Part shown: positions 30,046 to 36,050 of the stretch, piece by piece
Position numbering within the stretch: the stretch's first letter is position 1
Layout: the number at the start of each line of letters is the position of its first letter
Assembly: GCA_025363435.1 (NCBI GenBank)
Contig: JANYDY010000108.1
Span: 1-64,000, forward strand
Direction: 5' to 3'
DNA: 64,000 nucleotides
Origin: Betaproteobacteria bacterium
GTDB lineage: Bacteria > Pseudomonadota > Gammaproteobacteria > Burkholderiales > SG8-41
Position numbers and translations under genes: made by a program
The notes under the pieces: generated by a model
Database searches by the model: none
What the model was told of the DNA's origin: nothing
The model's input: the letters and a program-made list of their open reading frames with translations, nothing else

Positions 30046-32442
30046 ATGCGTCTTTCGATCATCTGTTTTGCCGCCGGCACTGCCTTGCTGCAATTGCAGC
30101 GCGAATTGCCGTCAGCGCAGGGATGGTGGCTGCTGCTGCCGTTTTTGCTTGCGCTATTGCTCGCTGCACGTCCGCGCCGCGCCGTCATGCAGCAGGGATG
30201 CCGGATTGTTGTCGTGATGCTGTGCTTCGCCTGCGGTTTCATGTGGGCGGCATGGCGCGCCGACGGGCGGCTGGCGGATGAATTGCCTGCTGCGCTGGAA
30301 GGCGCGGATATCCGTGTCATCGGAGTTGTCGCGCAGTTGCCGCAACCGTATGAGCGCAGTCTGCGTTTTGAATTCGATGTCGAGCGCGTGCTGACGCCGC
30401 AGGCTGAGGTGCCGGCGCGCATTGCATTGTCGTGGTGGGGGGCGCCCGCGCTGGAAGGTCAGGCCGGGAGCATTCCGGCGTTGCATCCCGGCGACCGCTG
30501 GCAACTGACGGTGCGCCTGCGCCGGCCGCACGGCCTGCAAAATCCGGATGGTTTTGACTATGAAGCGTGGCTGCTGGAACGCAATATACGCGCCACCGGT
30601 TATGTGCGGACGCCGGCGAGCGCGCGGCGATTGGCGGCAAATGTATTCGCGCCGCAATATTTGATCGAACGGCTGCGCGAGGCGGTGAGAGAGCGCATTG
30701 TTAATGCCCTGCCGCAGGCCGAGTACGTCGGCGTGTTGACGGCTTTGGCGATCGGCGACCAGCGCGGTATTCCGCTGCAGCAATGGCAGGTGTTTACGCG
30801 CACCGGCGTCAATCATCTGATCAGTATTTCAGGTTTGCATGTGACGATGATATCGGGCCTTGTTTTCTGGTTGGCACATGTGTTGTGGTCGCGCAGTTTG
30901 ACGCTGGTGATGCGCCTGCCGGCGCGCAAGGCTGCGGCGGTAGCGGGTTTGCTGGCGGCGCTTGCATATGCATGGCTGGCCGGTTTTGCCATACCGGCGC
31001 AGCGCACCGTCTACATGCTCGCCGTTGTCGCGCTCGCATTGTGGTGCGGCCGCTTGAGTTCGCCGGGCGGGGTGTTGTGTGCTGCCTTGCTGCTGGTAGT
31101 GGCGATTGATCCGTGGGCGGTATTGTCGGCCGGTTTCTGGTTGTCGTTCGGCGCAGTGGCGATCATTCTGTTTGTTTCATGTCACCGTATCGCGGCACCG
31201 CACTGGATCGTTGCCTGGGGACGCGTGCAATGGGCGGTTACCGTTGGACTGACGCCTTTGCTGATTGCGATGTTTCAGCAGGTTTCGCTGATTTCGCCGT
31301 TTGCCAATGCACTGGCGATTCCGCTGATCAGTCTGGCGATCGTGCCGCTGACCTTGCTTGGTGTAGTGACGCCCGGCACGCTGGTTTTGCAATTTGCGCA
31401 CGCCTTGATGGCGGCCTGCGGAGCAGCGCTGCAATGGATGAGCGAATTTCCGGCCGCGGTGTGGCAGCAGCATGCGCCGCCGCTGTGGGCAGTCGGTGTT
31501 GCATCGACGGGGATTTTCTGGATGCTGTTGCCGCGCGGGTTTCCGGCGCGCTGGATCGGCGCGTTCGCTTTTCTGCCGCTGTTTATTGTCACGCCGGCGC
31601 TGCTGCCCGAGGGCGCTATCCGTCTCGCCGTGCTCGACGTCGGGCAGGGTTTGGCGATTGCGCTGCAGACACGCCATCATGCATTGCTCTATGACGCCGG
31701 AGCGGTTTACGGACCGCAGGCCGACAGCGGCAACCGGGTAATCGTTCCGTACCTGCGCGCCAGCGGCATCGGCGTTTTGCATACCATGATCGTCAGCCAC
31801 GGCGACAAGGATCATGCCGGCGGCGCGGCGTCGGTATTGCAGGCGGTGCCGGTCGAACGGGTGCTATCGTCGCTGACAGAAGCAGAAGTTAAAAATGCGA
31901 ACTGGCCGAATGCGACGCCGTGTATTGCAGGTGAGCGCTGGCGCTGGGATGGCGTCGATTTCGAAATTCTGCATCCGTCCCTGCAGCACTATGCACGCGA
32001 TAAGCAGCGTAGTAATGACCGCAGCTGTGTTCTGCGCGTGAGCAGCGGCGGTACGGCCATTTTGCTGGCTGCGGATATCGAACAGAAGACGGAAGCGGAG
32101 TTGCTGAAGTCTGCAGCGGAAAAACTGCCGGCCCGCGTGCTACTGGTGCCGCATCACGGCAGCCGCACCTCTTCTTCGGCAGAATTTCTCGCCCGCGTCA
32201 AACCCGAATACGCGCTGGTTGCGGCCGGTTATCGCAATCGCTTCGGTCATCCGCGCGAGGATGTGGTGGATCGTTACCGGGCGCTCGGCAGCCGGATATA
32301 CCGTACCGATCTGGATGGCGCGTTGATTGTTTTGTTAAACGGCGGCGGCGACTTGAGTATTCAGCGTCAGCGCCTGCTTGGGCGGCGCTATTGGCATGCG
32401 GCGCTCGAAAATCCGGATCTTGCCGAGGATGAAGAATTCTGA
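30046..32442 (+). CDS. comEC: ComEC/Rec2 DNA-uptake channel
   Basis: A polytopic inner-membrane protein that passes incoming single-stranded DNA into the cytoplasm during natural transformation. The 798-residue length is typical. The order is: N-terminal membrane helices, an OB-like DUF4131 region (about 60-200), the Competence domain starting at YVGVLTALAIGDQRGIP with ISISGLHVTMISG, several TMs, and a C-terminal metallo-beta-lactamase-like domain (LDVGQGLAIAL, SHGDKDHAGGA, VPHHGSRTSSS). The intact metal ligands suggest a possible nuclease. No other competence genes are nearby. The start has only a weak ribosome site. Confidence 0.93.
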   Translation: MRLSIICFAAGTALLQLQRELPSAQGWWLLLPFLLALLLAARPRRAVMQQGCRIVVVMLCFACGFMWAAWRADGRLADELPAALEGADIRVIGVVAQLPQPYERSLRFEFDVERVLTPQAEVPARIALSWWGAPALEGQAGSIPALHPGDRWQLTVRLRRPHGLQNPDGFDYEAWLLERNIRATGYVRTPASARRLAANVFAPQYLIERLREAVRERIVNALPQAEYVGVLTALAIGDQRGIPLQQWQVFTRTGVNHLISISGLHVTMISGLVFWLAHVLWSRSLTLVMRLPARKAAAVAGLLAALAYAWLAGFAIPAQRTVYMLAVVALALWCGRLSSPGGVLCAALLLVVAIDPWAVLSAGFWLSFGAVAIILFVSCHRIAAPHWIVAWGRVQWAVTVGLTPLLIAMFQQVSLISPFANALAIPLISLAIVPLTLLGVVTPGTLVLQFAHALMAACGAALQWMSEFPAAVWQQHAPPLWAVGVASTGIFWMLLPRGFPARWIGAFAFLPLFIVTPALLPEGAIRLAVLDVGQGLAIALQTRHHALLYDAGAVYGPQADSGNRVIVPYLRASGIGVLHTMIVSHGDKDHAGGAASVLQAVPVERVLSSLTEAEVKNANWPNATPCIAGERWRWDGVDFEILHPSLQHYARDKQRSNDRSCVLRVSSGGTAILLAADIEQKTEAELLKSAAEKLPARVLLVPHHGSRTSSSAEFLARVKPEYALVAAGYRNRFGHPREDVVDRYRALGSRIYRTDLDGALIVLLNGGGDLSIQRQRLLGRRYWHAALENPDLAEDEEF

Positions 32443-32482: not shown

Positions 32483-32893
32483 TCAAAAGTTTCTGTGCAG
32501 CATCAGACCCGGCGTGCGTTTCGGCGCCAGTTGCAGCCCGGGCGCTGACAGTTCGGTCGGCGGGGCAGCGACGTTGAGATTGAGTCCGACGCCCCACTCG
32601 TTTTTCTCATCGAGTTGCATTAACAGGCTTCTCGAATCGCGGTTGTAATTCAGGCCGAATGGCAACTCGATGCGATTGCGCAGACCAGCGTGTTCACGCA
32701 ACTCGCTGGCGGGGCGGCGCAAACCGACTGGCGCTGAATCCTGTGAAAATGCTTCTGCCGACGAACGTGCAGGCGGTTGCAGGGTTGCCGGCCGGTCTGC
32801 AATTTCATCGGCAGCTGCAGAGAGCGACGGCAGCACAGCAAAGGCCGCGGCAATAATGCCGGCAGTGGTAAAGCGTATTAGAAGACGATGCAT
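32483..32893 (-). CDS. Small secreted protein of unknown family
   Basis: A 136-residue protein with a clear signal peptide (RLLIRFTTAGIIAAAFAVLP, cleavage near SLSAAADE). The mature part is polar and Pro/Arg-rich, then RIELPFGLNYNRDSRSLLMQ and EWGVGLNLNVAAPPTELSAP, which look like short beta-strands, ending PGLMLHRNF with a C-terminal phenylalanine. This could be a small envelope or outer-membrane-associated protein. GGGAGAGG precedes the ATG at 32893, which argues against the longer frame from 33001. I recognise no domain. Confidence 0.6.
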   Translation of the reverse strand: MHRLLIRFTTAGIIAAAFAVLPSLSAAADEIADRPATLQPPARSSAEAFSQDSAPVGLRRPASELREHAGLRNRIELPFGLNYNRDSRSLLMQLDEKNEWGVGLNLNVAAPPTELSAPGLQLAPKRTPGLMLHRNF

Positions 32894-33133
32894 GGATTGC
32901 CTCTCCCACCGATCCAGCTTGTGACGTGCGTTACTATTATCAACCCGCAACTGTGACTTTTTCAACACTTGAAACAGGCTGGATGCGGTTTGAGCTGTCA
33001 TTGCAACCGCTGCCCGGTTCCGATAAATTTCAGGATTGTTATTGAAATATATTTTTATTCAGTAAGTTGCAATTAGCCGGAACGGACGATCCGGCGCCTT
33101 GGAGTTTTGTATGTTGCGCTGCGGAAAACGACC

Positions 33134-33889
33134 ATGAAAAAGTGCCCGAAATGCGCTTATGAGCGTCGCATCGAGGATCAGGGGGATGCCGGAATTTGCC
33201 CTTCGTGCAGACTGGTCTTTGCAAAATGGGTGAGCCGTACTCTGGGCACTGCGCGTTTGCCGCGCGATGTGGAGCCGGCTGATGATGAGTCGAGCGGCCG
33301 GCTCAGCGGTTTATTCGAACGTCTTACGTATGTGGAGCCACGCACTGATTCGATGTTGTTCTGGGGGCGTGTTGCACTCTACGCAGCCTTTGTCGTTTGG
33401 GGTTTCTACTTCATATCACTGGATTTGCGCACCAATGAAATCGGCGCGTCTTTCATGCATCGTATCGATTTGGTGTTTCACGAAGCCGGGCACGTGATCT
33501 TCATTCCGTTCGGCCAGTTCATGCGCATACTGGGCGGCAGTTTAGGCCAGTTGCTGATGCCCGCCATTGTGATCGGCGTGCTGGTGGTAAAGAATCGCGA
33601 TAATTTCGGTGCTTCGATCGGACTGTGGTGGTTCGGCCAGAGTCTCAAGGACCTCGGGCCTTACATTAATGACGCACGTGATCTGCAATTGCAGTTACTC
33701 ACCGGTGCCAGTCAGGATGTTCCGGAAACACATGACTGGGCAAATATTCTGATCGATCTTGGTTTGATCATGCGCGAGAAAAAAATTGCGCTTGGCGCCG
33801 ATATCATCGGTTCCCTGATCATTCTGCTGGCGCTGGCGTGGGGCGGCTATCTGCTGTTGAAGCAGTACTGCAATCTGCGGCGGGAGTAA
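33134..33889 (+). CDS. Zinc-ribbon membrane protein with HEAGH metalloprotease-like motif
   Basis: A 251-residue protein that begins with a zinc ribbon (CPKC at 4-7, CPSC at 22-25). An acidic linker follows, then a membrane helix (about 76-96) and LVFHEAGHVIFIPFG, in which HEAGH (116-120) matches the HExxH zinc site of M50-type intramembrane proteases. Further hydrophobic segments follow (QLLMPAIVIGVLVV; IIGSLIILLALAWGGYLLL). An FGQSLKDLGPYINDARDLQ segment could give a third ligand, but the usual M50 LDGG motif is not seen. Cleavage activity is inference. The stop is 4 bases before the relA GTG, so the two are probably co-expressed. The ATG at 33134 excludes a weak upstream extension from 33107. 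Confidence 0.7.
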   Translation: MKKCPKCAYERRIEDQGDAGICPSCRLVFAKWVSRTLGTARLPRDVEPADDESSGRLSGLFERLTYVEPRTDSMLFWGRVALYAAFVVWGFYFISLDLRTNEIGASFMHRIDLVFHEAGHVIFIPFGQFMRILGGSLGQLLMPAIVIGVLVVKNRDNFGASIGLWWFGQSLKDLGPYINDARDLQLQLLTGASQDVPETHDWANILIDLGLIMREKKIALGADIIGSLIILLALAWGGYLLLKQYCNLRRE

Positions 33890-33893
33890 AGTC

Positions 33894-36050
33894 GTGGCGA
33901 CTGCAAATCATTTGAAGCTGGTAACGCCACTGCTGCCGGATCGCGCCGCGGGGTTGTTGTCTGCGCTTGCCGGCGCTTATAACGTCGAAGAAAACGCGCT
34001 GATTTCGCGCACGCTGGTCTGGATCGCAAAGCACGCAGGCGAGCGGCGGCTGGCGAGCGGCGAAGCCATGCTTGAACACGCCGTCGCCACCGCCGGAATT
34101 TTGCTTGCCTTCGAGCCGGACGTTGAGTGCGTAACAGCAGGCTTGCTCGGACGCCTTGCTGAAGATGCGGTGTTATTGCCTGCACTGCGCGAGGATTTCG
34201 ACGCGGATGTTGCGGCGCTGGCTGAGGGCGCGGCACGCATGCTGACGATCGAAGAACTGGGTGGCCGCATTGAACCCGGCCGCACCGCCGGCACGCAACT
34301 CGAAGCCTTGCGCAAGATGCTGCTGGCGATGGCGCAGGACATGCGAGTGGTTCTGATCAAGCTTGCCGATCAGGTGCAATCGCTGCGCTTTGCCGTCAAA
34401 AGCGATGCCGGGCCACAGCGTGTCGCCGCGGCGCATCTCGCTCTGGATATTTACGCGCCGCTGGCGAATCGTCTGGGTGTCTGGCAGTTGAAGTGGGAGA
34501 TCGAGGATCTCGCGCTGCGCATACTTGAGCCTGAAATCTATCAGCGTATTGCGCGTTGGCTTGACGAGAAGCGCGACGACCGCGAAAGCTATATTACGAA
34601 TGTAATCGCGCAATTGCACGCCGCGCTTGCAGAGTCCGGCATCCAGTCTGAATTGAACGGACGCCCCAAGCATATCTACAGCATCTACAACAAAATGCGC
34701 GACAAGAATCTTGATTTCGCATCGCTGTACGATGTGCGGGCGGTACGCGCGATCGTCGCCGATGTCAAAGCCTGTTATGCCGTGCTGGGTGTCGTGCATA
34801 ACCTGTGGACGCCGCTGCCGGGCGAATTTGACGACTATATCGCGCGGCCCAAGGGCAACAACTACCGTTCGCTGCACACGGCGGTGATCGGGCCCGGAGA
34901 CAAGCCGCTGGAAATCCAGATACGCACCGCGGAAATGCATCAACACGCGGAATTCGGTGTCGCTGCGCACTGGCGTTACAAAGAAGGCTCGAGTCGCGAT
35001 GCGCGTTATGACGACAAAATTGCCTGGCTGCGCCAGATCGTCGAGTGGAAAGACGAAATGGCCGATGCCAGCGGGTTGTTCGCCGACACCATTTATGTTT
35101 TGACGCCGCAAGGCAAGGTGATCGATCTGCCGGCGGACGCGACGCCGATTGATTTTGCCTACCACCTGCACAGCGATCTCGGCCATCGCTGCCGCGGTGC
35201 GCGGGTCGATGGTGCGATGGTGCCGCTGAACACGCCGCTGAGGAACGGGCAACGCGTTGAAGTGATTACTGCGAAACAGGGCGGACCGAGCCGTGACTGG
35301 CTGAACCCGGCGCTGGGTTTTCTGAAGAGCGCGAGTGCGCGCAATCGCGTGCGGCAGTGGTTTAACCGGCAGAATCATGAAACCTCGGTCGCGCAGGGAC
35401 GCACAATCGTCGATCGCGAATTGCAGCGCCAGGGCATGACACGGCTTAATCTTGAAACGCTGGCGCGGCAATTCGGCTTCAACAAGGTTGATGATTTTCT
35501 CGCCGACGTCGGGCGTGGCGAAACCGGCCCGCGGCAACTGCAAAACGGCATTGTGCCGCAGCAGGAAACGCCGCCTGTCGATGAAGATGTGCCGATAGTC
35601 CGCAAGGCGCGCGCGCAATCCAGCGGCATACTGGTTGTTGGTGTCGATAAATTACTGACGGTGCCGGCGCGCTGCTGCAAACCAGCGCCGCCCGATCCGA
35701 TCATCGGTTTCGTTTCGCGCGGTCGCGGCGTGACCATACATCGTCGCGGCTGCCTGAACGTGCCGCGACTCAGCGCGGAGCGGCTGGTTGAAGCGGAATG
35801 GGGCGACTCTCCGCTGGCGACATTTCCGGTCGATATCGTGATCGAAGCAGACGATCGCACCGGCTTGCTGCGTGACATCACGGAAATTCTGTCGCGTGAG
35901 CATATCAACGTCACGGCGACCAACAGCGCGAGCCGCTCGGCGTCGGCGCGCATGCTGTTGACGGTTGAGGTGCCGAATCTCGGCCAGCTCGAACGCGTGC
36001 TGGCGTTGATACGCGCCGTGCCTGGTGTTGCCCGCGCGGCGCGGCGCTAA
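33894..36050 (+). CDS. relA: (p)ppGpp synthetase RelA
   Basis: Makes the alarmone (p)ppGpp from ATP and GTP/GDP on stalled ribosomes. The 718 residues show an N-terminal pseudo-hydrolase domain in which the usual HD pair is replaced (GLLGRLAED, 83-91). The synthetase domain includes RPKHIYSIYNKM (257-268) and the RelA-specific EFDD (311-314), where bifunctional SpoT/Rsh proteins have RxKD. A TGS domain (about 396-460), a helical and zinc-finger-like region with CC in VPARCCKPAPPD, and a C-terminal ACT domain (about 645-718) follow. The start is GTG after GGGAG. It converges on the FGE-like gene with 9 bases between. Confidence 0.95.
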   Translation: MATANHLKLVTPLLPDRAAGLLSALAGAYNVEENALISRTLVWIAKHAGERRLASGEAMLEHAVATAGILLAFEPDVECVTAGLLGRLAEDAVLLPALREDFDADVAALAEGAARMLTIEELGGRIEPGRTAGTQLEALRKMLLAMAQDMRVVLIKLADQVQSLRFAVKSDAGPQRVAAAHLALDIYAPLANRLGVWQLKWEIEDLALRILEPEIYQRIARWLDEKRDDRESYITNVIAQLHAALAESGIQSELNGRPKHIYSIYNKMRDKNLDFASLYDVRAVRAIVADVKACYAVLGVVHNLWTPLPGEFDDYIARPKGNNYRSLHTAVIGPGDKPLEIQIRTAEMHQHAEFGVAAHWRYKEGSSRDARYDDKIAWLRQIVEWKDEMADASGLFADTIYVLTPQGKVIDLPADATPIDFAYHLHSDLGHRCRGARVDGAMVPLNTPLRNGQRVEVITAKQGGPSRDWLNPALGFLKSASARNRVRQWFNRQNHETSVAQGRTIVDRELQRQGMTRLNLETLARQFGFNKVDDFLADVGRGETGPRQLQNGIVPQQETPPVDEDVPIVRKARAQSSGILVVGVDKLLTVPARCCKPAPPDPIIGFVSRGRGVTIHRRGCLNVPRLSAERLVEAEWGDSPLATFPVDIVIEADDRTGLLRDITEILSREHINVTATNSASRSASARMLLTVEVPNLGQLERVLALIRAVPGVARAARR

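Follow-up and report, generated by a model that had tools for sequence, protein, structure and literature searches.

Does a gene that lies directly in front of relA also work with it? In the window, i.e. the whole stretch of 64,000 nucleotides that was analysed, a protein with an N-terminal zinc ribbon, an HEAGH motif and several predicted helices is encoded immediately upstream of relA. The first-pass annotation had taken it for a putative intramembrane metalloprotease that could be functionally coupled to relA. The locus poses two questions, namely what the protein is and what its position means. The joint explanation that we consider best, and hold with middling confidence, is that the protein is a membrane-embedded metallohydrolase and that its gene is a bystander resident of the slot between comEC and relA. 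The importance of the locus lies in the unnamed family and not in the relA coupling.

The HExGH gene and its predicted product

The gene comprises 251 codons from an ATG start (Table 1); an in-frame TTG at 33107 could serve as the start instead. It is not a chance reading frame, since matches were found in 21 of the 60 genomes searched, one of them false. The false hit (L040 in genome G045) was an MFS protein matched by chance and was removed, and HExGH relatives are present in 20/60 genomes, the window's own included.

Table 1. Genes and protein motifs of the comEC-relA region, with positions in the window.
Feature	Positions	Strand	Basis
comEC/rec2, upstream framework gene	30046..32442	+	PF03772, PF13567
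Small uncharacterised gene between comEC and the HExGH gene	32483..32911	-	No Pfam family; homologues occupy this slot in several relatives
Gene for zinc-ribbon and HExGH membrane protein (start ATG 33134; stop codon ends 33889)	33134..33889	+	ORF analysis, 72-row alignment A3, AlphaFold2 model (mean pLDDT 90.7)
N-terminal zinc ribbon, C4-x2-C7 ... C22-x2-C25	33143..33208	+	Cys kept in 71/71 rows with letters
HEAGH, residues 116-120, putative metal site and putative catalytic Glu117	33479..33493	+	HExGH in 92/92 rows
GGSLGQLLMP, residues 134-143, second invariant motif GGxxxQxxxP	33533..33562	+	92/92 rows
D173-x2-P176-Y177-x2-D180-A181, candidate third-ligand motif	33650..33676	+	Y177 and D180 in 92/92 rows
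H200-D201-W202, conserved His/acidic pair	33731..33739	+	H200 in 91/92, D201 in 92/92 rows
relA, 718 aa, GTG start	33894..36050	+	TIGR00691, 570.9 bits; Pfam RelA_SpoT, HD_4, TGS, ACT_4

AlphaFold2 models were obtained for the whole protein and for its core (residues 70-251, pLDDT 92.6). The whole-protein model has helices at residues 73-94, 107-122, 128-153, 157-172 and 212-250, and HEAGH lies inside the 16-residue helix 107-122, near the helix end. The two models agree on a compact helical protein in which residues 181-200 form a loop of lower confidence. They suggest a compact membrane protein, with helix 107-122 placed inside the membrane. The zinc ribbon, the HEAGH motif and the several helices of the first reading of this gene are borne out by the open reading frame, the alignment and the model.

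Comparison of the whole and core models with the PDB by Foldseek gave no match at E<=0.001. M50 structures were absent from the matches listed (the best 50 of 116 and the best 50 of 130), which is not evidence for a different fold. With VIA-align, the best matches were unrelated channels with Z 6.7 (rmsd 4.9, 123 residues) and 7.6 (rmsd 4.6, 120 residues), values at the background level defined by the tool. Generic helical matches, ZnT-type zinc transporters among them, were found at Z 6.7-7.2, below the tool's meaningful level (rmsd 3.7-4.1, 110-121 residues).

From the conserved residues, the following mode of action can be proposed. A zinc ribbon at the N terminus would be followed by a membrane anchor helix, the short helix bearing HExGH and further helices. 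His116 and His120 would hold a zinc ion together with one of Asp180, Asp201 and His200, and Glu117 would activate a water molecule. The protein would thus be a membrane-embedded metallohydrolase and most probably a peptidase with other membrane proteins as its substrates. A third metal ligand is available, because Asp180 and Asp201 are invariant in the alignment of 92 rows, of which 91 also have His200; the first reading would have been contradicted by the loss of such a residue, and the candidates are retained. The metal site and its catalysis are deduced from sequence, and membrane-metallopeptidase-like action seems the most likely function of the family.

Conservation and distribution of the family

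His116, Glu117 and His120 are kept in 72/72 rows of alignment A3. Across the 92 rows that include both ribbon-bearing and ribbon-less members, HExGH, GGxxxQxxxP (with G134 and G135), W166, Y177, D180 and D201 are invariant, and position 173 is Asp in 69 rows, Asn in 20 and Glu in three. In the mixed alignment A1 the His-Asp pair at 200-201 is kept in 18/18 members, and the residue after it changes from Trp to Phe in 7/18. The loci of A3 were recruited by two peptide patterns, one of which contains HEA, so that the conservation of HEA in A3 is partly by construction; HExGH is also retained in A1 and in 20 distant members that were recruited by whole-protein or profile search. A3 takes in 71 of the 80 named loci described below. 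L076 (cut by a contig end) and L084 are absent from it and were added for the tree. Short or split reading frames (L088, L099, L114, L148) and copies judged by eye to be near-identical (L132, L145, L146) were excluded, as was L038 from A1, whose end appears by eye to be frame-shifted.

An order-level search found relatives in 72/399 genomes, several of them matching by the ribbon only, and a phylum-level search in 26/398, many via the ribbon only. In a survey of named records, 151 relatives were found and the best 80 were examined; their titles name Gamma- and Betaproteobacteria, Nitrospira, relatives of Geobacter, Myxococcota, Methylomirabilis and Acidobacteria. Many of these carriers are metagenome bins, for which the given names are not always reliable, and some are named strains, e.g. 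Methylohalomonas lacus and Trichlorobacter thiogenes.

The ribbon is a separate module, present in only 2/20 distant homologues and missing from the other 18. Pfam ribbon models match it only below their cut-offs, the best being PF08271 with 22.1 bits against a cut-off of 29, in L027. The core is unrecognised by Pfam and NCBIfam in the window protein and in 17 other members of A1, with sub-threshold matches only, mostly to zinc ribbons. A mobile-element origin of the gene was only probed, with the window protein and a ribbon-less relative as queries: neither query matched any of 72,556 plasmid records at E<=1e-3, and neither hit a PHROGs family at E<=0.1. A literature search returned no title evidently about this family. 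The family is undescribed in the libraries (Pfam, NCBIfam, PHROGs) and searches used here.

The relA neighbourhood

The downstream gene is a bona fide relA of the RelA/SpoT family. It scores above the TIGR00691 cut-off of 499.2 bits, and RelA_SpoT, HD_4, TGS and ACT_4 are likewise above cut-off. A diverged full-length paralogue (37% identity), presumably SpoT, lies elsewhere in the same genome. The spacing between the stop of the HExGH gene and the GTG of relA is 4 bases (33889 to 33894), as the first-pass annotation had stated. A GGGAG stretch at 33882-33886, by eye a possible ribosome-binding stretch of relA, overlaps the end of the upstream gene, so that co-transcription and translational coupling are plausible; from the layout of the two genes they are probably co-transcribed, and coupled translation remains a plausible addition. 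A scan for promoters and terminators found about as many sites as in shuffled sequences.

Downstream, thrS and infC follow relA in the window, and a gene resembling sulfatase-modifying factor (PF03781; 36060-36848, minus strand) lies between relA and thrS; its homologues stand beside relA in several relatives. The small minus-strand gene of Table 1 occurs in the comEC-relA interval of several genomes of the same genus, whether or not the HExGH gene is present there. A distant HExGH gene that bears the ribbon was seen upstream of thrS-infC in two genomes from a different family of the order, about 1.4 kb (L266, 4165-8832) or 0.2 kb (L270, 3921-7324) before thrS; relA was not recognised in the flanking DNA examined.

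The arrangement around the HExGH gene was compared across relatives. Among the first 20 neighbourhoods, comEC, the HExGH gene and relA stand in this order in six (L022-L027); L041 is cut by a contig end near comEC, L040 is the false hit, and the flanks of the remaining 12 contain neither comEC nor relA. Among the 80 named loci, relA lies directly downstream on the same strand in eight. All eight, and L076, whose contig ends within the HExGH gene, have comEC upstream on the same strand at up to about 3 kb. In L105 relA is encoded on the other strand at a distance of about 670 bases, and 70/80 loci have neither relA nor comEC in flanks of up to 6 kb, 64 of these 70 spanning at least 1 kb downstream. 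The best loci of the order search are relA-linked in 6/30 cases and those of the phylum search in 0/9, one of the nine being from the same order (up to 1.5 kb on each side in both searches). Some of the named loci lie on contigs that also appear in the genome search, and the sets of loci overlap and are not independent. Orthologues are spaced from relA by 10, -8, 18, 3, 3 and -8 bases; in L080 and L084 the mechanical starts of the reading frames overlap by more than 100 bases and may not reflect the true spacing.

The linked loci come from two families of one order. In a maximum-likelihood tree of 94 rows, rooted at the midpoint, the nine relA-adjacent rows and L076 group in a single clade (99/93), whose sister is a copy from Methylohalomonas (100/96). 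Recurrence of the adjacency in independent lineages was not found in these sets, and the link seems to go back to a single event and to have been inherited since. The relA regions of 18 relatives, drawn from 41 genomes and chosen as having no linked HExGH gene, all lack it (18/18), and comEC was recognised upstream in 13. Six genomes of the window's genus (G002, G003, G008, G010, G012, G014) have relA with no HExGH gene in front. Diverged copies lie away from relA in G002, G005 and G008, which belong to the same genus, and G003 has a more distant copy. Since comEC stands upstream in most of these relA regions without the HExGH gene, the comEC-relA slot is the stable feature and the HExGH gene one variable occupant of it.

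Elsewhere the neighbours differ by lineage and include an S13 carboxypeptidase, DUF2007, SIR2, Peptidase_M50, a BBP2 porin, MaoC, NifH and MFS proteins; their identities rest on one representative scanned per cluster, and on five for the M50 cluster. In five Nitrospira loci (L106, L112, L113, L118, L124) a Peptidase_M50 gene (PF02163; 327-329 aa) lies 94-124 bases upstream of the HExGH gene, placing two membrane metalloprotease-like genes side by side. These five loci group together in the tree, and the pairing therefore counts as one event. Neighbours are kept within a lineage and differ between lineages, so that the random neighbourhoods which, by the first-pass annotation, would speak against its proposal are largely what the survey found.

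A relA partnership as a general feature of the family was rejected, given one clade, the few linked loci and the same-genus relA genes that lack the neighbour, and the functional coupling proposed at first is unsupported. The proposal of the first-pass annotation, by which RelA has in this protein a partner of its own, namely a membrane metalloprotease that responds to the envelope or to metal status and cleaves some stringent-response regulator, we regard as unlikely. It would account for the 4-base gap and for the same order and strand in eight named and six same-order linked loci (overlapping sets), and the tight spacing among orthologues would also suit a real functional unit within the clade; however, the linked copies are one clade, six genomes of the same genus have relA without the HExGH gene in front, most named loci show no relA within their flanks, and comEC-relA is itself a stable pair, between which a resident gene stays linked by descent. 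More speculative, and to our mind highly improbable, is a new family of minimal zinc proteases of the membrane whose helical fold is peculiar to them (HExGH ... GGxxxQ ... YxxDA ... HDW). This family, unnamed in the libraries used, would occur in several phyla, and one branch of it would have been recruited into the relA operon, where it adjusts RelA output to the envelope state through coupled translation or cleavage. The best reading of the position is that the HExGH gene is a resident of a stable comEC-relA slot; these comparisons gave no sign of an action on RelA or (p)ppGpp, and the adjacency is probably not a working partnership. Being probably incidental, the link makes a poor lead into the stringent response without a direct test.

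Relation to known membrane metalloproteases

Whether the protein belongs to the M50 site-2 proteases was addressed by motif, profile and structure. According to an excerpt of a published account, M50 is defined by HExxH and NxxPxxxxDG, whereas M50B lacks NPDG and is marked by HExxH together with a conserved Gly and Asp (PMC5249076). The HExxH-type motif is present as HExGH in all 92 rows, in the predicted helix 107-122. The strict NxxPxxxxDG was found in 1/92 rows (L117), located in the linker before HExGH, and in no core. A degenerate [DNE]xxPYxxDA occurs in 67/92 and [DNE]xxxYxxD[AG] in 92/92. The HMM search that had been suggested for M50-like families gave no match to PF02163 or PF13398 at E<=1 in the full lists for 18 A1 members and nine distant members.

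In profile-profile comparison by hhalign, the family reached probabilities of 23.3% (whole protein) and 32.9% (core) against RseP-type M50, resting on the HExxH stretch, which is paired with HEAGH over 17-39 columns; against M50B the values were 13.1% and 15.5%, with HExxH not aligned, and against the compact S2P 3.6%. As controls, RseP against the compact S2P gave 80.3%, M50B against RseP 43.6% and M50B against the compact S2P 2.3%. The method is thus weak for distant pairs, because the M50B controls scored just 43.6% and 2.3%, and a remote kinship with M50 may still exist.

Membership in M50 or M50B was not accepted, since neither profile matched, the core has no strict NxxPxxxxDG and the search of the PDB gave no significant fold match. 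That the protein is an M50 site-2 protease which has diverged very far from the rest of the superfamily is a possibility that we consider doubtful. This reading fits the HExxH within a helix, the order in which the invariant GGxxxQ and [DNE]xxPYxxDA follow, which is that of HExxH and NxxPxxxxDG in the excerpted M50 description (PMC5249076), the pairing of HEAGH with the HExxH of RseP, and the M50 gene adjoining five Nitrospira copies, but not the failure of both M50 profiles at E<=1 (18 and nine members), the low hhalign probabilities (3.6-32.9%, by a method weak for distant pairs), the rarity of the strict motif and its place outside the core, or the lack of M50 structures among the Foldseek matches listed. 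The protein could also be a metal-binding non-enzyme, because no profile or solved fold ties it to a peptidase. In such a scaffold or metal-binding membrane protein, e.g. one for metal sensing or storage or a chaperone, HExGH would be a set of ligands and not an active site, as the generic ZnT-type matches below the tool's meaningful level might suggest; Glu117, though dispensable for a plain two-His site, is nevertheless invariant in 92/92 rows, and we give this reading, too, a minor share of our belief. Taken with the membrane-embedded metallohydrolase that we prefer, the membrane metalloprotease of the first reading remains plausible, and M50 membership is unsupported. The family is worth naming: its putative metal site is strictly conserved, and its compact membrane proteins occur in several phyla. 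It may represent a further class of membrane metalloproteases or of metal-binding proteins.

When set beside known systems, the family has several features in common with M50 (PF02163): an HExxH in a predicted membrane helix, a later conserved Asp preceded by [DN]xxP, and a glycine-rich motif between them. It differs in being one residue shorter between the Pro and the Asp, in having DA instead of DG, and in the profile and fold matches, none of which was found at the thresholds given above. With Peptidase_M50B-like proteins (PF13398) it shares about 220-250 aa, several membrane helices and an HExxH-type motif with downstream Gly and Asp but no NPDG, a likeness to the excerpted description (PMC5249076) that is generic and weak as evidence; the four M50B members compared, in contrast, have no N-terminal ribbon, and the profile and hhalign results (13-16%, not on HExxH) separate the two. 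The HEAGH protein VIR3 of Arabidopsis was rejected as a relative, the common feature known from an excerpt of its description being the five-letter motif alone (PMC9166295).

The zinc ribbon has parallels of its own. Like the window protein, other bacterial membrane proteins carry CPxCG...CxxC at the N terminus. A similar CPxC...CxxC ribbon is fused to unrelated proteins in L161-L179 (e.g. L164, L166 and L177), several of which have membrane helices by eye; the remainder of these proteins is unrelated to the HExGH core, and some of them are of what we take to be DUF805 or RDD membrane types. Unlike in the ribbon-bearing window protein, the HExGH core of 18/20 distant members exists on its own.
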